DNA of 64,000 bases, taken from NCBI RefSeq assembly GCF_900114245.1, contig NZ_FOSK01000010.1, forward strand, positions 124,001-188,000, written 5' to 3'. Source of the stretch: Pseudovibrio ascidiaceicola. Lineage in GTDB: Bacteria; Pseudomonadota; Alphaproteobacteria; Rhizobiales; Stappiaceae. Shown piece after piece: positions 519 through 60,114 of the stretch (its first letter is position 1; each line of letters opens with the position of its first letter). The translations under genes and the position numbers were made by a program. The notes beneath the pieces are model-generated. The model was not told the origin of the DNA and ran no database searches. It saw only the letters and a program-made list of their open reading frames with translations.

Positions 519-589
519 GCTTCGGCGCATCAATGCTCAACCGTTAAACTCTGGTCCAAGACTTAACGACACGTCCTTTGGAGACCGTG

Positions 590-39736: not shown

Positions 39737-39922
39737 GTGTTACTGATCTCCTGTACGAGTTTGCATCATAGGAGAATGGGGTGTGGGATCAGTAGGCTGG
39801 GCGTTGAAAATAGAGCGTAGCATTCACAAATAGTAGGTGTGTCGAGTATTGCTATGCAATTATAAGTTTCACGCAAGGAAAATACTCGTAATGTGCATGT
39901 GTAATATATTGGAGTGAGTTCA

Positions 39923-45201: not shown

Positions 45202-45273
45202 TTTCAGGAAATTAATTGTTACTGATCTACATTCTGCCTGAGCGGCATCAATGGATTAAGTTGGAGTTCCGGT

Positions 45274-46119
45274 GTGAAGAGCCTGTTATTCTTACCTGCA
45301 GATAAAGCACATCTTTTCCCGAAGGCGACGGCATCGGGAGCAGGGTGTGTGGTGCTTGATCTTGAAGACGGTGTTTGTGAAAAGCAAAAGTCTGCAGCGC
45401 GTGATTTGTTGCGTGGTCTGCAAGATGAGTTGCGTGAACATGAGACTTGTGAAATTGGTGTTCGCATCTCATCTTTGAGCACGCCAAGCGGGTTGGAGGA
45501 TGTGCTGTGTCTGTTGGAACTGGCGCATTTGCCAGACTGGATTTTTCTACCCAAATGTGAGAGCCCGCGAGACCTGGAGCAACTGGATCATCTCCTTCGC
45601 GCACATCCTGGCAAAGAGATGGTACGGATTTGCGCATTGTTGGAAACGCCAGCCGGACTGTCCAATGCTGAAGCGATTGCCTCAACCCATGCACCGCTTC
45701 ATGCACTGGCTTTTGGGTATGCGGACTATACGGCAGAGACGGGCGGTACTATGGGCTGGAACAGTCTTGTATGGCCACGTGGACAGCTGCTGAATGCAGC
45801 CGTGCAGAACCATCTTTGGGCCATTGATGGTGTGTTTCTGGATTTCAATGATCCTGAAGGACTTGAGGATGAAGCCCGCAATGCGCGAGATATGGGATAT
45901 AACGGCAAGTTTGCCATTCATCCTTCTCAAGTCAGCGTTGTCAATTCGTGCTTTGAACCCAGTGATGAGGAAGTTCAGTGGGCCTTGAATGTGCTTGAAA
46001 AGCAAAAGGATACGGCAGGACAAGGCGCTTTTGTTGTTGATGGCAAGATGGTCGATGCTCCTGTGATCCTACGCGCGAGACGTTTGCTTGGTCTGAGTGA
46101 TGGTGATGATCATCCGTAA
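45274..46119 (+). CDS. CitE-like lyase (citramalyl-/methylmalyl-CoA lyase candidate)
   Basis: This 281-residue HpcH/HpaI-family protein has LLFLPADKAHLFPKAT at the N-terminus, LDLEDGVCEKQKSAAR, CALLETPAGLSNAEAIA with the metal-binding glutamate, AFGYADYTAETGG, and KFAIHPSQVSVVN near the end. CitE-like lyases of this size cleave citramalyl-CoA to acetyl-CoA and pyruvate or similar. The start is GTG: TTGGAG lies seven bases upstream at 45261-45266 and no ATG is available. It is divergent from the CoA-transferase with 72 bases between, so a shared promoter region is expected. Confidence 0.85.
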   Translation: MKSLLFLPADKAHLFPKATASGAGCVVLDLEDGVCEKQKSAARDLLRGLQDELREHETCEIGVRISSLSTPSGLEDVLCLLELAHLPDWIFLPKCESPRDLEQLDHLLRAHPGKEMVRICALLETPAGLSNAEAIASTHAPLHALAFGYADYTAETGGTMGWNSLVWPRGQLLNAAVQNHLWAIDGVFLDFNDPEGLEDEARNARDMGYNGKFAIHPSQVSVVNSCFEPSDEEVQWALNVLEKQKDTAGQGAFVVDGKMVDAPVILRARRLLGLSDGDDHP

Positions 46120-46141
46120 GTATTTATATAATTGAATACTT
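46118..46141. repeat. Short AT-rich palindrome after the CitE-like gene
   Basis: AAGTATT (46118-46124) and AATACTT (46135-46141) form an inverted repeat with a ten-base AT-rich spacer, starting at the last codon of the lyase gene. It could be an operator or a weak transcript end. A similar half-site, AATACTT, recurs in the MarR palindrome at 48215. Confidence 0.4.
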
Positions 46142-46626
46142 ATATGGTTTATGCTATAATGTGATAATGATAAGTAATTCCATAATCTACCTTATGCATA
46201 AGTTTGATTTTTACTTGTTATTACTGTGTGAGATCAATCATTCTGTGCAGTGTAAGGAGTAGGGGGGAGTGGCAGGTCTTCGCTAGACTCACGAGAGTGA
46301 AATGATCTCAGGTGAATGTGCTGAAATGCTACGTAGTAAGCCTAAGTTGATGAATATGTTTCACTTTGCGGAAATGTATGTCCTTGAATACACCTGATTT
46401 TAGTCTTCGGGTTTTGTATTAAAGAACAAGCCTTTTTAACTTTGAATGACTGGTGAGTAACGCTGTTAACCGCGCTGGCATCCTTGAAATATCATCTCTT
46501 TTATACTTAGCAGGAGGTTTGTTAGGCTCGGGTTGAATGCTGGTGCTGCATACCTGCATTTGCAAAATTTAGCTTTCCCTGTATGCATCTGGGCCACTAC
46601 GGCCCGAACAGGTCAAGGAGCCCGTC
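46120..46626. other. 507-base AT-rich intergenic region
   Basis: No gene is visible. It holds the palindrome above, the left copy of a 20-bp inverted repeat (46178-46197) and, at its end, the ribosome site AAGGAG of the alcohol dehydrogenase. It is clearly richer in A and T than its surroundings. I could not find a full regulatory site or RNA gene in the remainder. Confidence 0.6.
46178..46197 (+). repeat. 20-bp inverted repeat, left copy
   Basis: TTCCATAATCTACCTTATGC is the exact reverse complement of 49312-49331. The pair encloses the alcohol dehydrogenase, MarR and short-chain dehydrogenase genes. No transposase is present between or beside the copies. Confidence 0.7.
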
Positions 46627-47643
46627 ATGTCTATGATGAGAGCGGCCGTTGTGCGCGAGTTTGGTGCACCGTTGGACGTGTGTGAAGTTGAAAAGCCTAC
46701 AGTAAATGATGACAGTGTTCTGGTGAAAATTGAGGCCACTGGCGTGTGTCACACTGACCTTCACGCTGTTGAAGGTGACTGGCCAGTCAAGCCGACGCCA
46801 GCCTTTATTCCGGGCCATGAAGGCGTGGGAATTGTGGTTGAGAAAGGCCGGAATGTCACTTCGGTGAAAGAGGGGGATCGTGTTGGAATTCCCTGGCTTC
46901 ACACCGCTTGCCGCTGCTGTCGTCACTGTGTTGATGGCTGGGAAACTTTATGTGAAAGCCAGCAAAACACTGGTTACAGCGTCAATGGCAGCTTTGCAGA
47001 ATACGCTTTGGCAGACCCGAATTTTGTCGCTCATTTGCCGAAAGAACTTGAATTTGCACCAGCAGCACCAATCCTGTGCGCGGGCGTGACTGTATATAAG
47101 GGACTGAAGGAAACTGAGACAAAACCGGGGCAAACGGTTGTGATTTCCGGTATTGGCGGTTTGGGGCATCTGGCTGTTCAATACGCCAAGGCCATGGGCT
47201 TACATGTGATTGCGGTTGATATTGCAGAGGACAAACTGGAGCTTGCAAAATCACTTGGCGCGGATATGACGCTCAATGCATTCAAGTGCGATCCAGTGGC
47301 TGAAGTGCAAGCTGGCGGCGGTGCTGAGGGCGTGTTGGTCACGGCAGTGGCTGGCAAGAGCTTCCAGCAAGGTGTTGGTATGTTGGCACGCGGCGGCACT
47401 ATGAGCCTTGTTGGTTTGCCTCCTGAGGATTTCCCACTCAACATCTTTGATATGGTGCTCAACCGCAAAACCTTACGCGGTTCCATTGTGGGCACGCGAA
47501 ATGATCTGCGAGAGTCCTTGGAGTTTGCTGGTGAAGGCCAGGTCGCTGCGCATTACACCACAGAGCCGCTCGATAATGTGAATGACATCTTTGACCGTAT
47601 GCGCAATGGCAAGATTGAAGGCCGGATCGTGATGGACTTTTAG
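46627..47643 (+). CDS. Zinc-dependent alcohol dehydrogenase (AdhP-like)
   Basis: This 338-residue NAD-dependent alcohol dehydrogenase has catalytic zinc ligands in GVCHTDLHAVEGDW and FIPGHEGVGIV, the structural-zinc cysteines in CRCCRHCVDGWETLC, and the Rossmann motif VVISGIGGLGHLAVQYAKAM. It should interconvert a primary alcohol and its aldehyde. AAGGAG precedes the ATG. It is followed by the convergent MarR gene, whose partner SDR gene lies beyond; whether the MarR protein also controls this gene is unknown. The upstream 507 bases are AT-rich. Confidence 0.94.
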   Translation: MSMMRAAVVREFGAPLDVCEVEKPTVNDDSVLVKIEATGVCHTDLHAVEGDWPVKPTPAFIPGHEGVGIVVEKGRNVTSVKEGDRVGIPWLHTACRCCRHCVDGWETLCESQQNTGYSVNGSFAEYALADPNFVAHLPKELEFAPAAPILCAGVTVYKGLKETETKPGQTVVISGIGGLGHLAVQYAKAMGLHVIAVDIAEDKLELAKSLGADMTLNAFKCDPVAEVQAGGGAEGVLVTAVAGKSFQQGVGMLARGGTMSLVGLPPEDFPLNIFDMVLNRKTLRGSIVGTRNDLRESLEFAGEGQVAAHYTTEPLDNVNDIFDRMRNGKIEGRIVMDF

Positions 47644-47726
47644 AGCCTGAAAATGCTTTGGTTCCGCAGACTGTGCATAGGAGTCTGCGGCATTTGTGTA
47701 TTTGGGTGGTGGTGCATTCAATGAGT

Positions 47727-48194
47727 TCAAGCCTCGTCAATATGCTCATCAAGTTTCTTGAGTAAACGTGTCATCTCGGCGCATTCGTCCTCAGAATACA
47801 CTTTGGTCAGAAGCGGATAGGCGACATTTGCCATGGCGTTAAGAGCGGTCGTGAGCTTGCTTTCACCTTCCTGCGTAATGTTGATCAGGATAACCCGTTT
47901 ATCCGTTTCTGATCTATGACGCGTGACGAGGCCCTGTTTCTCCAGTCGGCCAATGATCTTCGTTGCGCCACCTTCGGTGAACATCAGGGCACTGGAAATA
48001 TCACTCATTCGCACTTCACCTCCTGACTGCTGGACGCGTCCAAGAAGCTCTTTTTCTGACAAGGTCAGATCACATGCCTCTGTCACTGCCGCTTGTAGCT
48101 TCTGCCTAAGGCGAGCGGCTTGCAGTAACAGCAGATGCGCTGTCTGAATGGTTGCCTTTTGGGACTCTGGGGCGAAATTAAACTGAGTCATCAC
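47727..48194 (-). CDS. MarR-family transcriptional regulator
   Basis: This 155-residue winged-helix regulator has the MarR fold: a dimerisation helix at the N-terminus (HLLLLQAARLRQKLQAAV), the recognition part VRMSDISSALMFTEGGATK, then the wing GLVTRHRSETDKRVILINIT, followed by a C-terminal dimer helix. MarR proteins usually repress their own gene and a divergent neighbour and are relieved by small aromatic or oxidising ligands. A strong 35-base palindrome lies 20 bases upstream, between this gene and the SDR gene. Confidence 0.92.
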   Translation of the reverse strand: MMTQFNFAPESQKATIQTAHLLLLQAARLRQKLQAAVTEACDLTLSEKELLGRVQQSGGEVRMSDISSALMFTEGGATKIIGRLEKQGLVTRHRSETDKRVILINITQEGESKLTTALNAMANVAYPLLTKVYSEDECAEMTRLLKKLDEHIDEA

Positions 48195-48214
48195 ATATCC
48201 GAGGTGTTACAAAC

Positions 48215-48249
48215 AATACTTGACTGGATTAGTAATCTAGTCAAGTATT
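48215..48249. promoter_or_regulatory. Putative MarR operator, near-perfect palindrome
   Basis: AATACTTGACT (48215-48225) is mirrored exactly by AGTCAAGTATT (48239-48249) around a 13-base centre that is itself partly symmetrical. Each arm includes TTGACT on its own strand, a -35 hexamer, so a bound dimer would block both divergent promoters. It sits between marR and the SDR gene, so autoregulation and control of the SDR are likely. Confidence 0.75.
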
Positions 48250-48291
48250 ATGGTCGATCGATCTTGACCGACTGTAAACAAGGATAAAAAA

Positions 48292-49194
48292 GTGTCCATA
48301 GGCCTCACCCCATCTAAACCTCCAAAATCCAGTATTTTGCGCCTTTTACGGTGTATGTTTCGTCAGGGGGCGAGAACCCGTATTTGTCCTCCCGGACCAC
48401 GACTTGACGGAAAAACTGTTCTGATAACAGGCGGATCAGCGGGTGTGGGCGAGTATGTTTCCCGAGGATTGATTGCGCGGGGGGCCAAGGTTGTGTCTCT
48501 GTCCCGCGGCATTTCTCAGGGTAAGGGAGGGATTGCTGATCTCCGGCAAGTTAAATGCGATCTATCTTGCTTGCAGTCTGTGGCGGATGCGGTTGGCAAA
48601 GTGGGTGATCAGAAAATTGATATATTGATCTGTAACTCAGGTGTTTTGCTGCACGACCATGAAATGGCTTCTGACGAGGTTGAAATGACCTTTGCTGTCA
48701 ATGTTTTAGGCCATCATCTGTTGTATCGACTCTTGATAGAGCAAGGCAAATTTGCGGAGGATGCACGCATTGTGATGACATCGGGAGATGCCTATGTCAT
48801 GGCTCAAACCTGTGATGTGAATCCGTTGAACTACTCAAGCAACCGGGTTTATGGCGGGAGCAAACTGGGCAATTTGTGGCAGATGCGGGAGCTCGCGATA
48901 CGCTATCCGGCTCTCAAGAGCTATGCTATTCACCCCGGGGTTATTTTGAGCGGTTTTGGTGGGTTTGCTGAGCAAGGCGGGCTTAGAAGCTGGTTGGCCA
49001 AAAGACTGCTGATATCGGAAGAACTCGGGGCACAAGCTGCGCTTATTGCGGCGACGCAAGATGTTCCTAGCGGAACCTATTGGCACAACGTCTGGGGAGT
49101 TATGGATTTGCCTGAAGATGATGCTGGTATGGATCGGCAGAAATCGGGGGCTCTTTGGGATCAGCTCGAATTGCTTTCTGCGGCTTACCTTTGA
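48292..49194 (+). CDS. Short-chain dehydrogenase/reductase
   Basis: This 300-residue SDR protein has an extra N-terminal segment of about 40 residues before the cofactor motif TGGSAGVGEYVSRGL. The active site is recognisable: VMTSGDAY with the serine and YGGSKLGN with tyrosine and lysine (Y-x3-K). The usual NNAG reads CNSGV. It resembles the RDH/WWOX branch of the family (retinol dehydrogenase-like), so the cofactor may be NADP. The start is GTG at 48292; AAGGA lies seven bases upstream. It diverges from marR across the palindrome and is probably repressed by MarR. Confidence 0.87.
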   Translation: MSIGLTPSKPPKSSILRLLRCMFRQGARTRICPPGPRLDGKTVLITGGSAGVGEYVSRGLIARGAKVVSLSRGISQGKGGIADLRQVKCDLSCLQSVADAVGKVGDQKIDILICNSGVLLHDHEMASDEVEMTFAVNVLGHHLLYRLLIEQGKFAEDARIVMTSGDAYVMAQTCDVNPLNYSSNRVYGGSKLGNLWQMRELAIRYPALKSYAIHPGVILSGFGGFAEQGGLRSWLAKRLLISEELGAQAALIAATQDVPSGTYWHNVWGVMDLPEDDAGMDRQKSGALWDQLELLSAAYL

Positions 49195-49311
49195 GCTTTG
49201 ATCGTTTGAAAGATGTACCAGGATTATGACAATATCGCAGATGTTGAAATCGCACATTTTGGAGGCGTGAAGCTACCTTTGTCCTTCGTACGGGCCGTAT
49301 ATGCCAAATAC

Positions 49312-49331
49312 GCATAAGGTAGATTATGGAA
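49312..49331 (-). repeat. 20-bp inverted repeat, right copy
   Basis: GCATAAGGTAGATTATGGAA, reverse complement of 46178-46197, lies between the SDR stop and the wecB stop. The flanking bases also agree in part (an A-T-rich left flank) beyond the exact 20. Confidence 0.7.
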
Positions 49332-49357
49332 CTAAAACGTAAAAGGTCAGTTTGAGC

Positions 49358-50503
49358 TTAGTGTGTTGAGTTTATGTGGGTTTCGACAGCGGTTGCAATG
49401 CGTTGTGATGCGTGGCCGTCACCGAACGGATTTTTGCGATCGATCTTTGTGTGTTTGCCTTTCAGGATGTGCGCGGCTTCATCCGTGATGGTTTGCTCAC
49501 ATGTGCCAACGAGTTTTGCAAGTCCGCTTTCCAGTGCCTCGGGCCGCTCTGTGGTCTTACGCAGGATCAGTAGCGGTGTTCCAAACTCCGGTGCTTCTTC
49601 CTGAATGCCACCGCTGTCTGTGAGGATCAGGTCTGCGTCACGTTCCAATGCGATGAGCGCTTCATATGACAGCGGCGTGACCAGATGTACACGTGGCACA
49701 TTTTTGAGCACGGACTCGACCATGTCTTTGACAACCGGATTTGGATGGACCGGCAATACGACCTGCAGATCCTCATGGGCTTTTGTGATGTGTTTTATGG
49801 CCTGACAAATGTGGCGCATGGGATCGCCCCAGTTTTCACGTCGGTGTGTGGTTACCAGCGCCAAACGTTTTTGCGGCCCCAGAACGTTCCTGAGTTCATC
49901 CAGCTCACGGGCTGGTTTGATCTTGCGTGACAGATGGCGCACGGCATCGACTACCGTGTTTCCCGTAGTGAGTATTTTCTCGTCACTTAAGCCTTCGCGC
50001 AGCAAGTTGTCTCTGGCGATGGATGTTGGTGCGAACAGTTTATGACACAGTTGGTCTGCCAGCCTGCGATTGGCTTCTTCTGGGAATGGATCACTCAGTT
50101 CGCCGCTGCGCAAGCCGGCTTCCACATGGCCAACGGGCACTGCGCTGTAAAAACTTGCCAGTGCGCCAGCGAACCCTGTTGTGGTGTCGCCATGAACCAG
50201 CGTGTATTTGGGATGGTGCACGGCCATATAGGCATTGATGCCTTTGAGTAGTTCTCCTGCCTGATCAGCCAGTTTGTGGCTTGTACTCGAAATGTCGAGC
50301 CAATTGATCTGGTGAATGTCGAAGGATTCAAGTGCGTTAGATGCGATTTCGCGGTGCTGGCCTGTCATCAGTACATGGGCGTGCAGCCCTGGACAGTTTG
50401 CGATTGCAGAGATGACCGGCGCCATTTTGATGGCTTCGGGACGAGTGCCGATGATGCACAGCACTTTGTCCGGGCCTGCTCCGATGATCTCTGGTTCTTT
50501 CAT
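49358..50503 (-). CDS. wecB: UDP-N-acetylglucosamine 2-epimerase (non-hydrolysing)
   Basis: WecB converts UDP-GlcNAc to UDP-ManNAc for surface polysaccharides. The 381-residue protein has CIIGTRPEAIKMAPVISAI, VHGDTTTGFAGALASFY, PVGHVEAGLRSGELSDPFPEE, TTHRRENWG and TDSGGIQEEAPEFG, all highly conserved. It is the last gene of an operon with nfrB-like, nfrA-like and DUF4434 genes; the DUF4434 stop is 23 bases before its ATG. In E. coli, WecB supplies UDP-ManNAc to the Nfr polysaccharide pathway, so a dedicated copy here fits that role. No wecC (ManNAcA dehydrogenase) is nearby. Confidence 0.95.
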   Translation of the reverse strand: MKEPEIIGAGPDKVLCIIGTRPEAIKMAPVISAIANCPGLHAHVLMTGQHREIASNALESFDIHQINWLDISSTSHKLADQAGELLKGINAYMAVHHPKYTLVHGDTTTGFAGALASFYSAVPVGHVEAGLRSGELSDPFPEEANRRLADQLCHKLFAPTSIARDNLLREGLSDEKILTTGNTVVDAVRHLSRKIKPARELDELRNVLGPQKRLALVTTHRRENWGDPMRHICQAIKHITKAHEDLQVVLPVHPNPVVKDMVESVLKNVPRVHLVTPLSYEALIALERDADLILTDSGGIQEEAPEFGTPLLILRKTTERPEALESGLAKLVGTCEQTITDEAAHILKGKHTKIDRKNPFGDGHASQRIATAVETHINSTH

Positions 50504-50526
50504 CTTATGCGCTACGGTCCTTGTGA

Positions 50527-51612
50527 TTATTCGGCAGCTTCTGCATTCGCCAATGTGCTTGCACCGCAGACATGAGCGTTCTGTGTAAGGAACTCTTTGA
50601 TCTCGCGACTGTGTTTGTTGTCGAACTTCAGGATGTGACTGGATAATGAGAACAAGGCCAAAGGCTGTGTGGGCGAAAAACTTGCGTTCTTCAAACGGCT
50701 TTTCATTGTGCCGAGCGTGGTTGGGATTGTGCTGAAATCTGGTGTTCTCGGGTCAATCTCGAAGATTTCCACCACCGGGATAACCGTATGATCTTGCGTG
50801 CTAAAGGCTGCGCTGATGGCGCGTTGCAAGTTGCGGCTGGAATAAGGTTCCATAAGCTTGGCCCCTAATCCATCCTGCAGCAGCAGAATGTCCATGGACG
50901 ACTTTGCCATGAGCTTGTTCCAATGAGCGGCCAGCTTTCGCGGAATGGTTTTCAAATCAGTGTATCCAGAGATGGCAACAGGCCCCGGGAGGATGCGGTT
51001 CAAGATTGCGCGGGTTTGTTTTGTGTACCCGGTGACGAGCTTTCTGAGCTTGCTATCCAACAGCAGATTGCCGTCAATTTCATCTGGTATATACCAGCCC
51101 GCAAATACCTCAGTGGGATGTGCGGTGTAGCTGATCTGAGCCTTTATGGCCGCGGCGAGCTTTTCGGTCTCTGCTAAGCGATTGTCCAGATAGGTCTGGC
51201 CATCCTTTTGCAGCTTCTCCATGAAGGATGGATCATATCTGAGGCCGAACCAGAGTTTGGCTCCAGCTTCATCCGCGCCCATGATTGCGGCTTCGAGCCA
51301 CATAGGCAGCTTGATTTCGTCCTGAAGATCGCTTCCCCAAACAGTCCACTGGAGGATGGCTTCGTTTATGCCAAGTCGTTGATGTGAAAGGAGTTCGCTG
51401 CGCCATAATCTAGGGTTAGGAAAATATTCATCGCCCCAAGGCTGTATGAAGCTCATATGTATAGGAATACATTCCTTAGTGCCGGAATCCTGCCGCGCAT
51501 AGGCTTTTAAGATCAACATGAATGTGATGAGAGCGAGGCAAAACACTCCAAAAAAGAAGCGTTTAAAAGTTTGCTTGAAGCCCAAGAAGCACTCGGCTGG
51601 TCTCACTGTCAT
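50527..51612 (-). CDS. DUF4434-like exported protein of the Nfr-type operon
   Basis: This 361-residue protein has a hydrophobic N-terminal segment (FFFGVFCLALITFMLILKA) that should be a signal peptide or anchor. The mature part fits DUF4434, a TIM-barrel glycosidase-like domain: LGINEAILQWTVWGSD, KLWFGLRYDPSFM, and FAGWYIPDEIDGN, where conserved acids may be catalytic. It occupies the place of YbcH in the E. coli nfr operon. A role in processing or modifying the polymer in the periplasm is inferred. The 51612 start overlaps nfrA by 50 bases; a later start is possible but no better site is seen. Confidence 0.72.
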   Translation of the reverse strand: MTVRPAECFLGFKQTFKRFFFGVFCLALITFMLILKAYARQDSGTKECIPIHMSFIQPWGDEYFPNPRLWRSELLSHQRLGINEAILQWTVWGSDLQDEIKLPMWLEAAIMGADEAGAKLWFGLRYDPSFMEKLQKDGQTYLDNRLAETEKLAAAIKAQISYTAHPTEVFAGWYIPDEIDGNLLLDSKLRKLVTGYTKQTRAILNRILPGPVAISGYTDLKTIPRKLAAHWNKLMAKSSMDILLLQDGLGAKLMEPYSSRNLQRAISAAFSTQDHTVIPVVEIFEIDPRTPDFSTIPTTLGTMKSRLKNASFSPTQPLALFSLSSHILKFDNKHSREIKEFLTQNAHVCGASTLANAEAAE

Positions 51613-54600
51613 CTGTGTTTAATACTTCGTGTCCTACACGCCCGAACACTTCCAGCTGAAGCAGGTCACCATAGGCTTCGGTGTACCACCCTCTCCACTT
51701 CAAAGATGCTCCCAGCCCTGCTTCAATTGCCACAGCGCTGGTTTGGGAGTTCCAGTTTCCGCTCCCTATGGAATACGCAAAGGGCGACAAAATCAGGTTA
51801 GGATCGAGCCTAAAAGTGTAACCAAGTCGGCCATCTCCATAGAATAAAATGGTTTTTTCCTTTTCGAAGAAACGACCACCTTCCAGATAGAGACTGATGT
51901 AGGGTTCTTTGTCGATGGGCTCGCCGGAGTATATATCGTAGAGCGGGAGGAAGTCGTTTCCGCGGGTGAAGGACCAAAGCACCCTCCCCAGCCAGTTGTC
52001 TTCTGTGATGCTGCCGCCTTTGAAAAACCGCTCCAGACCGATTTTCAGGTTTTGCGTCATGAAAGGTTTGAAGCGCAGGCCGACGATGGTCTGGTAGGTG
52101 TCGGGATTGGGGCGGAAGCTGTAGCGCTCATTGAGCCATTGGGCGCGGGCGATGATCTCGAAGACGCGGCCATTCTGGTAACCGATCACGGGAGGTCGCC
52201 ACGCCACTTCGAATGTACCGAACGGACTGCTGGACGGGATACCCAGGATAGCACCTGTTATTTCTTCTTCATTCTGCCGTGAGGGGCTGATGCCGTCAAA
52301 GAACAGGAAGCTGAGCGGAATTTCCAGAATACGGAGCTGCCGTTGGAAGCGCTCCAGTTTGTCCTGTTCATAGATGTTGCGCTGGTGCTGGTGCAGCACA
52401 TCAATCCGCTTGCGAAACAGTTCAGCAGCCTTCTTGTTTTCAAAGGCTGACAGATAGGTATAGGCCAGATCTTCCTGCAGGTTCGCCTGATCTGGCTTTT
52501 CCTCCAGCGAGGTTTCAAAGCGCGTGATCGCCAGATCAGTGTCACCCTGAGCACGAGCAAGATATCCACCCAAAGCAAGGGTTGCCGGGTTTTTATGATC
52601 ACTTGCTGGCAGGCTTTCGTATGCGGCCTCTGCTTCCTCCAGTTGATCCAGCTGGAACAGAACCTGGACCACGGAAAAACGGATGTCCTGCGTTGAAGAG
52701 ATGGACTGTGCCTTGCGCAGGTCCACCAGAGCGTTTGCCAGTGCCTCTGGGGACTGATTACCCCTATGGAGCGTGAGTTGGGCTCGGGCAGCATAATACC
52801 CGGCCATCTGCTGTTGAGAGAGCTTGGAGACATCAAGCTTGGCCATGAGGCGCGCTGCCTCGTCATATTGCATCTGGCGTAGGTTGAGATAGAGCAGCGC
52901 CATGCCAGCGCTCTGATCGTCATGCGCCTCAAAGGATTCCTGAAACCAGTCCTGTGCGGCGTTATATTCTCCCAACTCCTGATAGAGAAAGCCGAGCTGG
53001 CTTGCGGTGGCGAGGTTTGGGCTGAGCTCATACGCTTGCTGTAGCTCCTGTCTGGCTTTCTCCTTGTCTCCCAGTCGCAGATAGAGGCTGGCCAGCGTCA
53101 GGTGCTTGTCGGCGTTCATGGGCTGGGCCTGAAGCTCCTGTTGTGCGCATGTCAGAGCTTCCAGGTTGCGGTCGAGTACGCGGTAAGCCTCGCATCTGAT
53201 TGCCAAGATCGCATCGGTATTTTTGGTCTGGTCCAGTTGTTGCAGCAACATGAGAGCTCTTTTGGGGTGATTGAGCTCCAAGGCAAGATAAGCGGCTTCC
53301 AGGCGGGTTTCTGCAGTTGGCGCCATTCGCAGTGACTGTCGGTACATTTTCACGGCTTCCTGAAGCTGCCCCTCTGTTTTCAGGAGGCGCGCCAGTGCAA
53401 GGAAAGCCATGGCAAACCTGTTTTTGTTTTCGTCTGACAGGTTTGCTGTGTTGGTGTAGCTGAAAACGTAGTTCAGCCACATGCGGGCCGTGACACCTTC
53501 TGCGGTGCTTTCCTTGAGCATGAGATATGCTGGCAGAACGAGTGTCGGGTCTGGCTGCAGCTTCCAGTCCGCGATCAGATAGTCAAGCGTGCTGGTCCAG
53601 TCTTCATTGGTTGCAGAGACGGCTGCCAGATCAAACAGAAGACGTGCATAGGCTTTCTTGTCGTTTTCATTGAAAGCACCGTCAGCGCGGGCTTTCTGAG
53701 CTCGCGCAAGGGCATCCTGAAGAACGGCGGAAGCGATGCGGTGCATGTTGGAGAGCAGGGCAATCTGCCCTCTTTTTGCTGTGATGCGCCAGTTGGGCAT
53801 CAAAATTTCAGCTTCTTTGAGAACCTGATTGGCGAGATCCAGATCCCCTGCCCGTCGTGCTAAATCTGATAGGGTTTGCAGCAGCTCTACCCATGCTTCA
53901 GGTGACTTCTGCTGGTCGGTAAACTGGGTAATGGCGCGCAGTTCCACCAAAGCGTTGATAGCCTGTGTTTCCCAGCCGTTGTTGAGGGCCAGCTTGCTGA
54001 GTTGTAGGCCGTATTCCGGGCTGCGGGTGAGCTTGATCAACAATCGGCCTGCGGTGACCGCTCTGGCATCATCTCCGGCGCGAATGGCGATGTCTGCCAG
54101 TGCCAGATAGTAGTTGGCGGCTTCTTCTGGCCCGGAGGCTTTGGTGTCGAGGATCCGGCCATCTGCTGTTAGAAGCGCCATTTCAGCCTCAGCGCTGGAG
54201 CCTTTTTTCACCAGAGCGTAGGCCAGCTGAACGCGCGTGGACAATCCTAGTTGATCAATGCGCCCGGGGTTGAGGAAGGTCAGCAACTCGTCCAGATGAC
54301 CAGAATTGAGCGCACTGGCGGCCAGAGCTCTGGCGAATGTGCGTTGTTCCAAAGCGGAGGATTGGCGGCCAGTAAACAGTCCATTCATTTCACCGCGCAG
54401 CAGCAAACGGTAAGCGTCTTCGTCCTTGCCTTGTTCAAGAAGAAGGAAGGCTTCGTTCAGAATTGCTGTGCGCTGGGTTCTTGGTGCATTGTCCAGCTTG
54501 GAAAGATCCTCCCACTCGTCTCGCGCTTCTTCCAATTGATTGAAGTTGAGCAAAAGATCCGCTCTGATGAGCCTTTGCCTTGGAGTGGCAGCGCCCAGCT

Positions 54601-55255
54601 CTCGCAGAATGTTCAGGGCGTGGAGAGCTTCTTTGGTTTTGCCTAGCTTAATGGCTGCTTCTGCTGCGCCTGCAAGGGCTTCTTCCCGGTCGCTTGGCAA
54701 CAGTTTGCCAGTCTCGATCGCCAGTCTGAAATCATCAAAGGCCTCCGCATACTCACCCGTGAGCATTTGCAGATGGCCCAGAGAGAGATAACCGCGGCTG
54801 AAGGCGGGCGATTGGGATTGCAGGATCTCCAATTGATCGATTGCCGCGATTGGGCGATTGAGGCCGATGAGCAGCTGAATTTTTTGCCAACGGGCCACAA
54901 GATGATTGGGATCTTGCTTGAGCAGCTCATCCAGCTCTTTCAGGGCATCTTCGCTTCGTCCTTCTGCCAGCAGGCGGTAGGCCAGGTCCAGCAAGGGATA
55001 GGAGCGGTAATCGCGCCACGTGCTTTGCAGCAGGGATTGGCTGTCCTGACGGTCCTTCAATAAACTGATGTAGTACTCGTCTTTTTGCTGAAGGGTGTAA
55101 GGTACGGGGGTAACTGGCTCTGAAGGCGGTGCTGGATTTTGCGATTGTGTTGGAATGGACAAGCCAAGCGCAAACATGATGACCCACAGCAGATAGAATG
55201 CCGAGTTTCGATTGGCATTTGTGCGTGTGTTGTGGGGTGTTTGGGGCCGGGTCAT
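51563..55255 (-). CDS. NfrA-like TPR and outer-membrane barrel protein
   Basis: This 1230-residue protein has a signal peptide (residues 1 to about 38), a long array of TPR-type helices (residues about 40-990; typical units EDALKELDELLKQDPNHL and LYLRLGDKEKARQELQQAY), then a C-terminal beta-rich domain of about 240 residues that begins TFEVAWRPPVIGYQNGRV and has barrel-like strands to its end (SRVLLGLQANF). NfrA is the outer-membrane exporter of the N4 polysaccharide in E. coli, and is 990 residues there, so the TPR part is longer here. Its start overlaps the stop of the nfrB-like gene by four bases. Confidence 0.85.
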   Translation of the reverse strand: MTRPQTPHNTRTNANRNSAFYLLWVIMFALGLSIPTQSQNPAPPSEPVTPVPYTLQQKDEYYISLLKDRQDSQSLLQSTWRDYRSYPLLDLAYRLLAEGRSEDALKELDELLKQDPNHLVARWQKIQLLIGLNRPIAAIDQLEILQSQSPAFSRGYLSLGHLQMLTGEYAEAFDDFRLAIETGKLLPSDREEALAGAAEAAIKLGKTKEALHALNILRELGAATPRQRLIRADLLLNFNQLEEARDEWEDLSKLDNAPRTQRTAILNEAFLLLEQGKDEDAYRLLLRGEMNGLFTGRQSSALEQRTFARALAASALNSGHLDELLTFLNPGRIDQLGLSTRVQLAYALVKKGSSAEAEMALLTADGRILDTKASGPEEAANYYLALADIAIRAGDDARAVTAGRLLIKLTRSPEYGLQLSKLALNNGWETQAINALVELRAITQFTDQQKSPEAWVELLQTLSDLARRAGDLDLANQVLKEAEILMPNWRITAKRGQIALLSNMHRIASAVLQDALARAQKARADGAFNENDKKAYARLLFDLAAVSATNEDWTSTLDYLIADWKLQPDPTLVLPAYLMLKESTAEGVTARMWLNYVFSYTNTANLSDENKNRFAMAFLALARLLKTEGQLQEAVKMYRQSLRMAPTAETRLEAAYLALELNHPKRALMLLQQLDQTKNTDAILAIRCEAYRVLDRNLEALTCAQQELQAQPMNADKHLTLASLYLRLGDKEKARQELQQAYELSPNLATASQLGFLYQELGEYNAAQDWFQESFEAHDDQSAGMALLYLNLRQMQYDEAARLMAKLDVSKLSQQQMAGYYAARAQLTLHRGNQSPEALANALVDLRKAQSISSTQDIRFSVVQVLFQLDQLEEAEAAYESLPASDHKNPATLALGGYLARAQGDTDLAITRFETSLEEKPDQANLQEDLAYTYLSAFENKKAAELFRKRIDVLHQHQRNIYEQDKLERFQRQLRILEIPLSFLFFDGISPSRQNEEEITGAILGIPSSSPFGTFEVAWRPPVIGYQNGRVFEIIARAQWLNERYSFRPNPDTYQTIVGLRFKPFMTQNLKIGLERFFKGGSITEDNWLGRVLWSFTRGNDFLPLYDIYSGEPIDKEPYISLYLEGGRFFEKEKTILFYGDGRLGYTFRLDPNLILSPFAYSIGSGNWNSQTSAVAIEAGLGASLKWRGWYTEAYGDLLQLEVFGRVGHEVLNTDDSETSRVLLGLQANF

Positions 55256-56721
55256 GAGTGCGTTTCCTGCTCTACAGGAATTGTGAGTTCCAGACTTTCT
55301 TCATCCGGATAATCATGAGCGGTCTTGTCCCAGCCTATAACTTCGCCAGTGCCCAGATGTCGGATCCATGTTTTGATGGCGCGCATCATGGCGATGTAGT
55401 TGATGATGATGGATACGAAATAGCGCAGAGTTACAGGAGCCAATGCGCGCAGGCCGTAGTGGTAGCCTGTCCAGATATGGCGCTGGATAAGGCGGTGGGC
55501 GAGCAGCAGCACGTTGAACCAGATTACATACCAGAACGGGCTGTCTTCTGGCAGAAGTGGCGGCAAATGGTATGCATCCGGTGCCAGCTTCTCATAGAGG
55601 CGAAGGCCCCAGTAGAAGATTAGTGAGATGTAGCCGATGATGATGGCATGGCTGAAGAAGACCATCTTCCTGTCGCGCCAATAAAAGTATTTATCAGCGA
55701 GCCCTCCTTTCCACCCCAGCTGTGCCCAGCCCTGAAACGCGATGCCGATGGTCCAACGGGTTTTCTGGCGTACGCTTTGCCAGAAGCCGGAGGGAAACAG
55801 TTCCTGTGTGACTGCAAAGTCCGTGTGGTCGCTTTTCTTTGTCGGGTGGACCCAGAGCAGGCGATGGGTGAGCCCCTTCCCTGTGAGCCGCATGGCAAGG
55901 TCATAGTCTTCCGTCAAGGAGCTGATGTTGAAGATTTCCGGTATGCCGTTCTCATCTGTCCCAGAAATGGATTTGGCTGTCTCGATGGTTTTCTTGGAAT
56001 AGCAGGTACCAACGCCAGCGCCCGGAACGGTTCCGGTCAGGAAGCCCCTGACGAGGACTTCCTTGGAATGGAACTCGGCGAACTCGTCCATGTAGTGGCC
56101 TGCTGTCAGGTCCCGGCGTCTACGGGGTAACGAGAGCACAGGCAGTTGCACTACATCGGCAAGTTCCAGACTGGCGTTGAAGATGTGCAGGGCGTTGGAA
56201 TTGAGGATGTCTTCGGCATCCTGCATCACAATGCCGGCGAAGGAGATGTTCTGCTCCTGTTCGAACCTCTCGATTTCGGCAAGAATGGTGTTGACGCAGT
56301 CAGCCTTACAAGTTGGGCCGGGATTGTTGGTGGTGACGACGCGCAGGTTGTCATGTTCGGCTGCCAGACGGCTTGCAGCCTTCTGTGTGGCTTCATCATT
56401 GGGGTAGACACCGATGAAGATCCAATAGGATGGATAGTCCAGCCTGCGCATGATGCCTGTGACGGCGGGATAGAGGATTGCGGCTTCATCCCACGCGGGC
56501 AACATGATGACCAGCGGTCTGGGCGGGACGTGCCCTGTTTCTTCAAACAGGCGCTCTTCAGTTCTGCCCACTAATGGGCCGCGATACCAGGCGACAAAGG
56601 TGTAATAGAGGGTGTCAACGAACAGGTCATCTGCGCCAGATACAGCAAAAACGTATGAGGCGACGAGAAAGAGGCCCTGCGTAACAAGAAACAATAATAC
56701 AAAAGCATCTGTTACCAGCAT
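55252..56721 (-). CDS. NfrB-like membrane glycosyltransferase, lacking the C-terminal domain
   Basis: This 489-residue inner-membrane family 2 glycosyltransferase matches the glycosyltransferase half of E. coli NfrB. It has an N-terminal membrane helix, VIMLPAWDEAAILYPAV, the DxD-type QDAEDILNSNALHIF, LTEDYDLAMRLTGKG, and the acceptor motif QKTRWTIGIAFQGW (Q-x-x-R-W), then about four membrane segments and GWDKTAHDYP. E. coli NfrB (about 745 residues) continues with a cyclic-di-GMP-binding MshEN-type domain; this protein ends about 20 residues after WDKTAHDYP and so lacks it. ATG 56721 follows AAGGAG by 11 bases; a GTG at 56733 is too near it. It should polymerise a UDP-sugar, perhaps UDP-ManNAc. 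Confidence 0.83.
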   Translation of the reverse strand: MLVTDAFVLLFLVTQGLFLVASYVFAVSGADDLFVDTLYYTFVAWYRGPLVGRTEERLFEETGHVPPRPLVIMLPAWDEAAILYPAVTGIMRRLDYPSYWIFIGVYPNDEATQKAASRLAAEHDNLRVVTTNNPGPTCKADCVNTILAEIERFEQEQNISFAGIVMQDAEDILNSNALHIFNASLELADVVQLPVLSLPRRRRDLTAGHYMDEFAEFHSKEVLVRGFLTGTVPGAGVGTCYSKKTIETAKSISGTDENGIPEIFNISSLTEDYDLAMRLTGKGLTHRLLWVHPTKKSDHTDFAVTQELFPSGFWQSVRQKTRWTIGIAFQGWAQLGWKGGLADKYFYWRDRKMVFFSHAIIIGYISLIFYWGLRLYEKLAPDAYHLPPLLPEDSPFWYVIWFNVLLLAHRLIQRHIWTGYHYGLRALAPVTLRYFVSIIINYIAMMRAIKTWIRHLGTGEVIGWDKTAHDYPDEESLELTIPVEQETHS

Positions 56722-56895
56722 ACTCTGGTGCACTCCTTCGCAGTAACCTGATTAAAGTTACCCTAGGAGATTCGAGAGAATGCCCTCAGTCATGGGATGT
56801 TCTCAGAGGATTGGGCTGAGGCAGTTATGACGTGGGAGGGAGTGCTGAGGCCCTCTCCTCTCACAGTTTGTTTCGCATCGTTAATTAGCGCAGAT

Positions 56896-58035
56896 TCAGG
56901 CCAAAGTTTTGCTCTGCTGCATTTCATCGATGTCTGCCTCAGAGAAACCAAGCTGCTGTAAAACCTGTGCAGTATCGTCTCCGGTTCTTCCTGCTGGTTC
57001 AGGTGTTTGCGGAACTGTGCGGCTGAAGCGTGGTGCTGGTGCTGCCTGTGTGACGCCATTGAGCCGGATGCGGTTGCCGCGCTCGGTGTTGAGAGAGGCT
57101 GCGTTTGCCTCTTCGATGGAGAGCACAGGAGCAACGCAGGCGTCGGTACCTGCAAAGACACCGGTCCAGTGATCCAGTGTGTTTGCTTTGATGGCATTGC
57201 CGATTTGTTCTTCCAGCTGAGGCCACTCTTTCATGTTCATCTGGATCTTGGAAAGCTCTTGCGGAAGGTCCAGCCCTTTCAGCAGCAAAGCGAAGAACTG
57301 AGGTTCCAGAGAGCCGACGGACAGATAGCGGCCATCTGAGGTTTCGTAGCATTGATAGAACGGTGCGCCGCCATCCAGCAGGTTGGTCTGGCGCTTGTCC
57401 TGCCAAAGGCCGCGACCCAGCAAGGAGTAGATCAGGCCCATCATGGCTGGTACACCATCGACCATGGCTGCATCAATCACCTGCCCTTTGCCGCTTCTGG
57501 TGCGTTCAAACAGGGCTGATAATACTCCCAGCAGCAGGAACATGGACCCGCCGCCGTAGTCTGCTGCCATGTTGAGTGGTGGCACGGGTGGTCGGCCTTC
57601 TTCACCAATGGCGTGGAGCATGCCGGTCATGGCGAGGTAATTGAGGTCGTGGCCGGCGGCATGAGCCAGTGGCCCGTCCTGCCCCCAACCTGTCATGCGG
57701 CCATAGATCAGGCCCGGGTTCTTGGCGAGGCATTCGTCCGGCCCAAGGCCAAGGCGCTCCATTACGCCGGGGCGGAAGCCTTCGATCAGGATGTCGGCTT
57801 TCTCAACGAGGGAGAAGAAGACTTTGACTGCCTCTTCGCTCTTCATGTTGAGCGCTATGGACTTCTTGCCTCTGCGGTTGACGTCCTTGTCGATCCGCTC
57901 GCCGGTGCGGCGATCGACGACGATGACATCGGCTCCCAGATCTGCAAGCAATTGTCCGGCCATGGGCGCTGGGCCAAGGCCTGCCATCTCCACCACCTGA
58001 AGTCCTGAAAGTGGTCCCGCTTTTGCTGCTGTCAC
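56896..58035 (-). CDS. CaiB/BaiF family, alpha-methylacyl-CoA racemase-like
   Basis: This is a family III CoA-transferase fold protein of 379 residues. The sequence GPAPMAGQLLADLGADVIVV, NRRGKKSIALNMKS and especially AHAAGHDLNYLAMTGML with NMAADYGGGSM match alpha-methylacyl-CoA racemases, whose active-site histidine and aspartate lie in these blocks. It would epimerise 2-methyl-branched acyl-CoA. The start is GTG at 58035; GGGGAGG lies five to eleven bases upstream, and a longer frame to 58068 has no site. It runs in the direction of the nfr-like genes but is separated by 174 bases. It could also act on intermediates such as methylmalyl-type thioesters, which cannot be told from sequence. Confidence 0.87.
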   Translation of the reverse strand: MTAAKAGPLSGLQVVEMAGLGPAPMAGQLLADLGADVIVVDRRTGERIDKDVNRRGKKSIALNMKSEEAVKVFFSLVEKADILIEGFRPGVMERLGLGPDECLAKNPGLIYGRMTGWGQDGPLAHAAGHDLNYLAMTGMLHAIGEEGRPPVPPLNMAADYGGGSMFLLLGVLSALFERTRSGKGQVIDAAMVDGVPAMMGLIYSLLGRGLWQDKRQTNLLDGGAPFYQCYETSDGRYLSVGSLEPQFFALLLKGLDLPQELSKIQMNMKEWPQLEEQIGNAIKANTLDHWTGVFAGTDACVAPVLSIEEANAASLNTERGNRIRLNGVTQAAPAPRFSRTVPQTPEPAGRTGDDTAQVLQQLGFSEADIDEMQQSKTLA

Positions 58036-58461
58036 ATATGCCTCCCCAGTCAGCCAAGTCCTGCGCATGCGGACATCTTAGAAAGTGCCCGTTTCCAGAG
58101 TTGATGCCTTGCAGAGCTGGCTCGTCAGATTAGATTACCTGAAAGCCGCGCTGGGCGGATAACTCCGGTTTGCGTTGTTGGGTCAACCTTAGAGCGGCTG
58201 ATGGTGGTTCCACAACTCTCCATTTGGTGAATAGCCTATCCAATAGGTTAAGATGGATGGTGAGTGCGAGGAGGTTTTTCAGTCTGATGCGCTGGGCTGT
58301 GTCGTTTGCTGTGACGGGCGTTTTCTGATGAAATGAATTCATCAACGCAGTTACATAGCAACTTAAAGTAACGCATGAATCACTTAAACCACGCAAAATT
58401 ACACATAAGAACGCAAAGTCGCGTGGTTTTTATAATGTCTATATATTTCAGTAGGTTGTGA
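58036..58461. other. 426-base intergenic region
   Basis: No gene is supported; an 88-codon open frame in it has no ribosome site. It holds the promoter area of the racemase-like gene and a long-loop inverted repeat (AAACCACGC at 58386-58394 with GCGTGGTTT at 58421-58429) about 30 bases after the stop of the hydrolase gene. That repeat may be a weak terminator for the Liv operon. Confidence 0.5.
58386..58429 (-). terminator. Possible weak terminator of the Liv operon
   Basis: AAACCACGC and GCGTGGTTT form a nine-base stem with a 26-base loop, 32 bases beyond the stop of the hydrolase gene on the minus strand. The loop is long and no clear T-run follows, so it is uncertain. Confidence 0.3.
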
Positions 58462-59274
58462 TTATGTATTCAATATAGTTGTGAGGAGTAAGCTGTCTGG
58501 CTGTTCCAGTGCCTCTACCACGGTAAAATGATTTTTGCCGGGGTCCTCATAGGCAGTGATCTGCGTTTCAAAGCCGCCCCACATTGCGCAGTGGGCTGCA
58601 TTTTGCCGCCGAAACTCTGCCAGCTCCTCAGCGCCAACCCAGCCTGTAAAGCGTAGATTATCAAGAGGTTCGTGCAGCACCGGACTTTCTGCCAGCGCTT
58701 CCGCTTCGTCGATATGCAGAATGTCGTTCATTGCTGTCCTGCGGATTGGTCGCAGATCATAGACCCCACTGATGCCGAGGATGTGCTTGATCCGACTAGT
58801 GATACTGTCTGGTATCATCCGATTTTTGCAGCCAAGCCGTGCAACCAAGTGACCACCAGCAGAATGACCTGTCAGGTGAATCGGTCCTTTAACTTGTTCA
58901 GCTGAAACTTCAAGAGCATGCTGCATCTGATTGGTAATATTGACAATATTTGCATCTGGGCAGAGGTCGTAAGACGGTATGGCAACGGTGTAACCCATCT
59001 CGACAGCCCCCTTTGCCAGATGGCTGAAGGCGGACTTATCGAAGGCCTTCCAGTACCCGCCATGAACGATCATGACGAGCCCTTTGGACGCCTCAGTGCC
59101 TTGCGGGAAGAACAGGTCGAGCTTCTCTCTCTCCCCGCTTCCGTAGGCGATATCCAGCTGTTTTTTTGAGCTCTCGCGAAACGCTTTGGAGCGTTCAACC
59201 CATTGATCGAACAGCTCTTGTGCGTTTGGCACTGCTCCGGAGTTATGATAGGCCGCGTCCCAATCCCGCATCAT
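58462..59274 (-). CDS. Alpha/beta hydrolase, kynurenine-formamidase-like
   Basis: This 270-residue alpha/beta hydrolase has the oxyanion HGGYW motif, the nucleophile elbow GHSAGGHLV and a catalytic-histidine candidate in GKNHFTVVEAL. The general pattern is that of the arylformamidase/esterase group. ATG 59274 starts one base after the stop of the RidA gene; an upstream start at 59310 would overlap RidA by 35 bases. It ends the operon of a Liv-type ABC importer, a thioesterase and a RidA protein. The four probably degrade one imported compound, perhaps an amide or ester of an aromatic or amino compound, but the substrate is unknown. Confidence 0.83.
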   Translation of the reverse strand: MMRDWDAAYHNSGAVPNAQELFDQWVERSKAFRESSKKQLDIAYGSGEREKLDLFFPQGTEASKGLVMIVHGGYWKAFDKSAFSHLAKGAVEMGYTVAIPSYDLCPDANIVNITNQMQHALEVSAEQVKGPIHLTGHSAGGHLVARLGCKNRMIPDSITSRIKHILGISGVYDLRPIRRTAMNDILHIDEAEALAESPVLHEPLDNLRFTGWVGAEELAEFRRQNAAHCAMWGGFETQITAYEDPGKNHFTVVEALEQPDSLLLTTILNT

Positions 59275-59275
59275 G

Positions 59276-59695
59276 TTATTCCGCTCTTGGCAGTACTGCC
59301 GTTGCTTCAATTTCCACTTTGGCCTGATCTTCTACCAGATCAGCCACCTGGATCATGGTCATGGATGGAAAATGGCGCCCAAACACAGAGCGATACGCCT
59401 CGCCAACTTCGCGCAGGCGAGCGGTGTAGTCTTTCTTGTCGACCACATACCATGTCAGGCGCACCACATGCTCTGGCTTCGCGCCAGCAGTGGCTAGAAT
59501 TTCGCGAATGTTCTCAAGCGTTTGCTTGATCTGGTCAATGAGATCATCGCTCTCAAAGACCTGCTGACCATTCCAGCCGATTTGACCACCCAGAAAGATT
59601 GGTGTGCCCTCTGCCATAATGCCATTGGCATATCCGGAGGCTGGTTTCCAACCTTCCGGCTGGAGAAATTTGAACAGTGCTTGTTGTGTTGTCAT
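59276..59695 (-). CDS. RidA-family protein, without the archetypal arginine
   Basis: This 139-residue protein of the YjgF/YER057c/UK114 family shows IFLGGQIGWNGQQ, DQIKQTLENIREILA and the end KVEIEATAVLPRAE. In archetypal RidA (E. coli) an arginine in the segment FPARS is needed for imine deamination. Here that place reads FPSMT, so the arginine is replaced by methionine and the protein belongs to a different Rid subgroup. Its substrate is unknown. The stop of the thioesterase gene and this start overlap by four bases, and the hydrolase starts one base after its stop. Confidence 0.9.
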   Translation of the reverse strand: MTTQQALFKFLQPEGWKPASGYANGIMAEGTPIFLGGQIGWNGQQVFESDDLIDQIKQTLENIREILATAGAKPEHVVRLTWYVVDKKDYTARLREVGEAYRSVFGRHFPSMTMIQVADLVEDQAKVEIEATAVLPRAE

Positions 59696-60114
59696 GAAGG
59701 TCCCTCTTCCTTCAGGAAAAATTCCATTTGTTTTTTAATGGCTTGCGGCCAACTCACTGGTTTTTTATCTGCGCCTGTGACGTAGACAATGACCGAGCGG
59801 CTTGTGAGCCGAAGCTGGTCTGCGCAGGTGACTGTGAACTCCAGATGCACACTGGAGCGACCGAGCTTTAAAACCTGAAGCGTGAATAAAAGTTCGTCAC
59901 CAAGCTTGCTTGGCTTTTTGAACTCTGTTTCGATCTTGGCTGTGGGGACTGCATCCCCTTGATTTATATGAATGTCTACGAACGACGTGCCAAGCGATTG
60001 CTCGAACCACTCTTCTGTGACCTGATTGATCATCTCGAAGTAGCGGGGATAAAAGACAATTCCAGCGGGATCGCAGTGCTGGAAGATCACTTTGATCGTG
60101 CGTTCAAAGACCAA
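59692..60114 (-). CDS. 4-hydroxybenzoyl-CoA-thioesterase-type acyl-CoA thioesterase
   Basis: This is a 140-residue hot-dog thioesterase with the catalytic-aspartate motif HCDPAGIVFYPRYFEMI near the N-terminus and a central strand VHLEFTVTCADQLRLTSR. It should hydrolyse an acyl-CoA thioester. Its start lies 11 bases inside the 3' end of livF, and its stop overlaps the RidA start. Its place in the operon implies a CoA intermediate in the pathway of the imported compound, although no ligase is in view. Confidence 0.9.
   Translation of the reverse strand: MVFERTIKVIFQHCDPAGIVFYPRYFEMINQVTEEWFEQSLGTSFVDIHINQGDAVPTAKIETEFKKPSKLGDELLFTLQVLKLGRSSVHLEFTVTCADQLRLTSRSVIVYVTGADKKPVSWPQAIKKQMEFFLKEEGPS

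Follow-up and report, generated by a model that had tools for sequence, protein, structure and literature searches.

A stretch of 64,000 nt of the genome of the marine bacterium Pseudovibrio ascidiaceicola (contig NZ_FOSK01000010.1, positions 124,001 to 188,000; called the window below) carries on its minus strand, from 56721 down to 49358, four open reading frames (ORFs) in a tight operon-like array: nfrB, nfrA, a gene for a DUF4434 protein and wecB. With reasonable, though by no means full, confidence, this array is read here as a self-contained Nfr-type operon for the synthesis and export of a polymer of the poly-N-acetylmannosamine (poly-ManNAc) type, free of direct allosteric control by cyclic di-GMP (c-di-GMP) and equipped with a membrane-anchored putative glycosidase. 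Judged from its sequence, the operon looks functional, and it bears four marks of a variant: the MshEN domain is absent from NfrB, wecB comes last, NfrA is long, and the lineage is common with that of Desulfogranum.

In the proposed mechanism, WecB would convert UDP-N-acetylglucosamine (UDP-GlcNAc) into UDP-ManNAc, which NfrB would polymerize in the inner membrane while threading the chain into the periplasm. The DUF4434 protein, anchored in the same membrane, would act as a glycosidase to trim or release the chain, and NfrA would guide the polymer over its tetratricopeptide repeat (TPR) domain and then out through its beta-barrel. The output would probably be set by transcription, through a conserved element before nfrB, and by the UDP-ManNAc supplied by the operon's own wecB.

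A conserved four-gene operon

All four genes lie on the minus strand. The first, nfrB (55252..56721; 489 aa from its ATG), encodes, according to motifs, profiles and a structural model, an NfrB-like processive polysaccharide synthase of glycosyltransferase family 2 (GT2). It overlaps by 4 nt with nfrA (51563..55255; 1230 aa), which encodes an NfrA-like TPR protein with a predicted outer-membrane beta-barrel exporter. The DUF4434 gene (50527..51612; 361 aa) overlaps nfrA by 50 nt, and a gap of 23 nt separates it from wecB (49358..50503; 381 aa), the gene for a non-hydrolysing UDP-GlcNAc 2-epimerase. The original prediction had placed these genes here and taken them for an Nfr-type operon carrying its own wecB; the four ORFs, their profile matches and the position of wecB as fourth gene bear out both statements.

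The four-gene order is preserved in nine of the 15 other Pseudovibrio genomes, including G006, in which the nfrA and DUF4434 frames are split. Between the window and five congeners, dN/dS ranges from 0.04 to 0.20 in 17 of the 20 operon-gene pairs with computable dS, these values being rough since dS exceeds 1 in many pairs. The kept order and these low ratios indicate that the locus is not a product of chance. A decaying, non-functional remnant, whose synthase has lost a needed domain, is a most improbable explanation: it could appeal to the gutted operon of G009 and to the split frames of G006, but the catalytic motifs are retained, dN/dS is low and the NfrB frames are open (476-493 aa) at all 11 congener loci where the whole gene is found. 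In G006 the assembly also breaks the adjacent CoA-transferase gene, and for this reason the genome was not counted in favour of decay.

A synthase without the MshEN domain

NfrB matches the Pfam GT2 domain PF13641 (1.1e-25) and, in NCBIfam, NF012033 (402.7 bits; equivalog cut-off 537) and the NfrB model NF008411 (375 bits; cut-off 1170). The latter match spans the synthase part only and remains below the equivalog threshold; the protein is therefore called here an Nfr-type variant rather than an NfrB equivalog. It is 34% identical to E. coli NfrB. It carries the motifs MQDAED, SLTEDY, RQKTRW and WDKTAH, and the DxD, TED and QxxRW signatures of a membrane-embedded GT2 synthase are present, in agreement with the profiles and with the AlphaFold model (predicted local distance difference test score, pLDDT, 89.7). 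The motif residues are invariant across 51 aligned sequences, the window's included; alignment A1 took nine of the 11 congeners whose NfrB is whole, leaving out G004 and G006.

The protein ends 20 aa past the WDKTxH motif, at the point where E. coli NfrB and most relatives continue into MshEN, and the model closes there in an 11-residue tail of low confidence. No MshEN match was obtained for it with the Pfam profile, with which E. coli NfrB scored 52.9 bits and the Desulfogranum protein nothing; Pfam recognised the domain in nine of 23 aligned NfrBs, the window's not among them. The claim that the glycosyltransferase stops before the c-di-GMP-binding domain thus stands. Intermediate tails also exist, with only 66-86 residues after WDKTxH (L045, L046, L100, L101 and L125), and those of L045 and L046 are not recognised as MshEN by Pfam. 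Two other causes of the short form were rejected. A synthase cut by a frameshift disagrees with the start of nfrA at the nfrB stop and with the recurrence of the short form in 11 congeners. An MshEN domain encoded by a separate gene is contradicted by a genome-wide search, which found none here and was positive in five of 14 control genomes, E. coli included.

NfrB homologues devoid of MshEN are already in print and are not new here: 1,705 of 1,841 homologues possess the domain (PMC8669469), which leaves 136 by subtraction. Unlike the E. coli enzyme, an NfrB of this kind would not be under the direct control of c-di-GMP. The original prediction went further, stating that regulation must differ. 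Such a statement goes no further than the direct allosteric step; transcriptional control or a separate receptor may still operate. In one such alternative, the same operon and product would be controlled in trans, a PilZ-type receptor or an interacting diguanylate cyclase binding NfrB in place of MshEN. The genome yields 11 GGDEF and four PilZ domain matches, so that c-di-GMP signalling exists and one of the PilZ proteins could confer such control; moreover, E. coli DgcJ is reported to interact directly with NfrB (PMC8669472). The contig that holds the window carries none of the GGDEF or PilZ matches (the searches for receptors covered these domains and MshEN), which answers for these domains the question of a receptor encoded nearby. 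In the congeners, the neighbouring genes were compared with the window's proteins and not by profile, and so argue only weakly against control in trans, which appears rather unlikely. Under the preferred reading of an operon without direct c-di-GMP control, this lineage is an example of the Nfr pathway operating, or at least being maintained by selection, in the absence of its second-messenger switch. Its MshEN-less synthase, encoded next to an epimerase of its own, could serve for the in vitro reconstitution of poly-ManNAc synthesis without the c-di-GMP step.

The exporter and the putative glycosidase

NfrA is recognised by the NfrA_C profile PF13283 (4.5e-13, 49.6 bits; cut-off 25) and by TPR families. 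It comprises 1230 aa, compared with 990 in E. coli, and its NfrA_C domain lies at 1052-1194 instead of 809-977. Since the domain begins later in the longer protein, the segment before the barrel is longer than in E. coli, as had been proposed.

The third gene had been described as a DUF4434 gene in the place of YbcH. The position is correct, but the relation was understated: E. coli YbcH itself matches the DUF4434 profile PF14488 (1.5e-69, 235 bits), as does the window protein (2e-24), and the gene is therefore a YbcH homologue, at 22% identity. An iterated search started from the window protein detected members in 57 of the 80 best nfrB loci; in 53 the gene lies downstream of nfrB and on the same strand, and some of the loci end at contig edges. 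Alignment A2 took 43 of 58 matches and holds 44 members, 43 of which are independently recognised by Pfam as DUF4434. Two residues, Glu178 and Glu282, are both invariant in all 44.

The structural model of this protein (pLDDT 89.4) shows a TIM barrel preceded by an N-terminal helix (12-37), which may be a membrane anchor. In retaining glycosidases of clan GH-A, the catalytic pair is located on strands 4 and 7. In the model, Glu178 closes strand 4 (170-179) and Glu282 closes strand 7 (276-282), which is the arrangement of the GH-A type. A Foldseek search placed first 4h41 (BT_0435, a putative alpha-L-fucosidase), with a template modelling (TM) score of 0.62-0.64 normalized by query and 0.69-0.72 by target, followed by a beta-mannosidase of glycoside hydrolase family GH164 and then by GH5 mannanases. 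The DUF4434 profile also reaches 4h41 by sequence (7.3e-8) with both glutamates aligned, the second stretch not being significant alone. For DUF4434/YbcH, a TIM-barrel fold carrying a pair of invariant glutamates is thus predicted, nearest in structure to glycosidases, including mannosidases. Several observations weigh against this assignment. Non-glycosidase TIM barrels such as Old Yellow Enzyme also match the model, the matches to mannosidases are moderate (TM about 0.5), and the best structural match is itself annotated merely as a putative fucosidase. The sequence identity of the structural matches is 8-14%, and phmmer found no match between the window protein and characterised glycosidases, the profile reaching only the putative enzyme 4h41. 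In addition, phage N4 is reported to infect E. coli without need of ybcH (PMC8669469), and a hydrolase role would therefore not be essential in that organism; this fits a trimming role without proving it.

As far as the literature searches show, the glycosidase prediction is new, and it is the freshest point of this analysis. No paper using the term DUF4434 was found and, among the papers naming both YbcH and NfrB, PMC8669469 is the only one that concerns the system. The prediction has the merit of singling out two residues, Glu178 and Glu282.

WecB and its link to nfrB

The wecB product scores 417 bits with TIGR00236 (cut-off 210) and is the only WecB found in the genome. Two WecC-like dehydrogenases were found, at 182 and 175 bits against a WecC cut-off of 459; they match best the TuaD and TviB models, below those cut-offs too, in a scan that covered the matched parts only.

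All 11 congeners with a whole NfrB possess a WecB, which follows DUF4434 on the same stretch in nine of them. The nfr contig of G013 stops within DUF4434, and an operon-type WecB is found on another contig; G014 has no operon copy and a WecB of the non-operon type instead, and G004 has both types. No WecB was found in G003, devoid of NfrB, or in G009, where only a remnant is left. This distribution is in line with PMC8669469, which states that a WecB is linked to nfrB where the organism has no other. The same paper describes wecB as often linked to nfr operons, and the packing of wecB into the operon is thus already known and not new here.

Among the 80 best loci of the genome collection, wecB is near nfrB in 53, upstream in 44 and downstream in nine; the latter comprise five Pseudovibrio loci, Desulfogranum, L098, L123 and L164. 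The NfrB tail is shorter than 45 aa in 12 of the 80, and wecB is near and on the same strand in all 12, compared with 41 of the 68 others, a contrast confounded by kinship.

These data bear on the identity of the polymer. NfrB could make a different product, for example from UDP-GlcNAc or as a mixed glycan, with wecB serving another pathway or adding a minor sugar. The substrate is not readable from sequence; NfrB is 34% identical to the E. coli enzyme; a TviB-like dehydrogenase gene lies about 2.5-3.5 kb beyond the left end of the window; and the nfrB-less congeners G001 and G008 keep a WecB, of the non-operon type. A lone WecB adjoining NfrB is likewise no proof of UDP-ManNAc use. On the other hand, wecB stays with the cassette in both Pseudovibrio and Desulfogranum and shares its tree, and G003 and G009 have neither a WecB nor a whole NfrB. 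A different polymer is consequently considered improbable, and a product of the poly-ManNAc type is preferred.

Distribution and descent

Within Pseudovibrio, the whole short NfrB is present in 11 of the 15 other genomes; G001, G003 and G008 give no match and G009 holds a remnant. Identity to the window's NfrB is 59-95% in five named Pseudovibrio records. In G009 (L028:6593-10564) the start of NfrB is fused in frame to NfrA, and the synthase core, DUF4434 and wecB are lost; unless the assembly is at fault (980 contigs), this would be a natural loss of the pathway.

Outside the genus, no short form turned up in the 21 genomes examined from the family or in the 24 from the order. In a sample of 385 genomes of the class, the window's own included, 16 gave a match: its own, a very weak one (G316), four with proteins of family f39 and ten with high-scoring NfrBs. 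Among these ten, G219 has no extension, three have a partial one (561, 561 and 616 aa) and six measure 711-788 aa. Five of the six were scanned singly and all five match MshEN, four above the cut-off; for the three partial extensions, the Pfam MshEN result was none, none and a sub-threshold value of 0.021. A phylum sample of 398 genomes, again with its own, gave 34 with a match: its own, 17 with f39 proteins, G634, G316 and 14 with high-scoring NfrBs, of which ten have frames of 710-794 aa, three of 554-580 aa and G219 one of 499 aa. The short GT2 proteins of f39 and that of G634, a single genome of the same order, reach 147-250 bits and were set apart as a different group. At the four f39 loci examined, L054-L057, tblastn with the window's proteins found no adjoining NfrA, WecB or DUF4434. 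The suggestion of a distinct alphaproteobacterial form is not upheld by this survey of the class: nine of the ten other high-scoring NfrBs keep part or all of the extension, G219 alone having the short form, and the nearest kin outside the genus belongs to another phylum.

This kin is Desulfogranum japonicum. In a 95-row NfrB tree, a branch with SH-aLRT support of 100 separates all Pseudovibrio sequences, D. japonicum and G219 from the rest, and in a 66-row tree without long rows the Pseudovibrio-Desulfogranum grouping is supported at 100/100. The larger tree left out L109, L146 and L160 (frames below 450 aa) and the duplicates L092, L094, L095, L096 and L131 of genomes already present; two rows in which no WDKT motif was found, L108 and L112, were assigned manually to "full". 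The smaller tree omitted a further 29 rows, consisting of near copies and of the long rows L044 and L149. The state without a tail changes six times in the 95-row tree (at least four being forced) and four times in the 66-row tree; the MshEN-less NfrBs are therefore not one group and, the roots not being known, loss and gain of the domain cannot be distinguished.

The WecB tree, from which matches below 300 query residues, those interrupted by a stop within the alignment and duplicates were removed, joins the operon WecBs of Pseudovibrio with that of Desulfogranum (SH-aLRT 99) and keeps four non-operon WecBs of Pseudovibrio separate. The same kinship in two gene trees indicates that the genes travel together, and the cassette has probably passed horizontally from one phylum to another. 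Some facts fit less neatly. G219 joins the short clade of the 95-row tree on a very long branch (1.93), and the program warned of long branches meeting in this tree. The 18.5-kb stretch of G219 shows no WecB, and L098, L123 and L164, too, have wecB downstream of nfrB. A broader proposal can be advanced only tentatively, namely that the Pseudovibrio-Desulfogranum cassette is a c-di-GMP-uncoupled Nfr lineage that crossed phyla as a unit and, at the same time, that DUF4434/YbcH is a new glycoside hydrolase family of nfr operons cleaving the ManNAc polymer during export.

Upstream region and neighbouring genes

The CoA-transferase gene, on the same strand, stops 174 nt 5' of the nfrB ATG. A GTG located 12 nt further upstream (56733) would give a protein of 493 aa, but an alignment of seven Pseudovibrio upstream regions speaks for the ATG at 56721. 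In these seven regions, the window's included, the specified bases of an 18-nt element, GAATCNNCTAGGNTNACT (56756..56773, minus strand), are invariant, and it may be a promoter or the site of a regulator. Its exact sequence occurs only here in the genome, and one further copy has one mismatch, compared with one for the reversed control; no regulon is therefore seen. No c-di-GMP riboswitch was found upstream by Rfam at E up to 1 (window 44000-60000). The promoter scan (6 sites versus a shuffled mean of 4.2) and the terminator scan (13 versus 8.7) are near chance, and the former placed no promoter-like site on the minus strand between the CoA-transferase gene and nfrB.

Downstream, the operon is followed by a convergent short-chain dehydrogenase/reductase gene. 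Elsewhere in the window, genes of sulfate-activation type (578-3424) and a repetitive, Asp-rich ORF of 909 aa (39914-42643, plus strand), seemingly a cadherin-like surface or secreted protein, were noticed by eye only. To the left of the window, the TviB-type dehydrogenase-like gene (G000:C23:120494-121504) hints at a second polysaccharide cluster.

Comparison with known systems

The closest structures to the NfrB model in Foldseek are BcsA (5ej1) and the Chlorella virus hyaluronan synthase, at a TM score of about 0.5 and with a large root-mean-square deviation; they are only 12-15% identical and use other substrates, and NfrB has no PilZ domain. Similarly, the DUF4434 protein shares with 4h41 and the GH164/GH5 beta-mannosidases and mannanases the TIM barrel and, in 4h41, the alignment of both invariant glutamates, but its sequence is remote from theirs and its enzymatic role putative.

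The nfr clusters of two other alphaproteobacteria, Thalassospira marina (L002) and Nitratireductor (L003), also combine nfrB, nfrA and wecB. In both, however, wecB lies upstream of nfrB, and NfrB measures 713-726 aa and includes MshEN. In the 19.4-kb stretch of Nitratireductor the profile detects no DUF4434, and the cluster contains a gene for a BcsB-like protein (L003:7570-8925; 20.8 bits, just below the cut-off of 21). Another BcsB-like protein is encoded in the nfr cluster of a class genome (L052:6187-8463; 25.4 bits), and such clusters may be hybrids in which Nfr parts are combined with export parts of the cellulose type.

The N4 glycan receptor (NGR) pathway of E. coli, NfrB-NfrA-YbcH with WecB, has the same components, namely synthase, exporter, DUF4434 protein and UDP-GlcNAc 2-epimerase, and the same order nfrB-nfrA-DUF4434 with overlapping nfrB and nfrA. 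It differs in the location of wecB, which belongs to the enterobacterial common antigen (ECA) cluster in E. coli and is the fourth operon gene in the window, as well as in the MshEN domain, the shorter NfrA and the distant YbcH. In the main texts of PMC5959193 and PMC4811931, the terms wecB, adsorption and c-di-GMP are absent.

The D. japonicum cluster (L097) is unlike the window's in its NfrA of 999 aa and in a DUF2334 protein, possibly a polymer-modifying enzyme, encoded directly after wecB (L097:16036-17769), none being seen adjoining the window's operon. It resembles the window's in having the same gene order ending in wecB, an NfrB without MshEN (36-aa tail), identities of 48% for NfrB and 52% for WecB, and a common grouping with Pseudovibrio in both the NfrB and the WecB trees.

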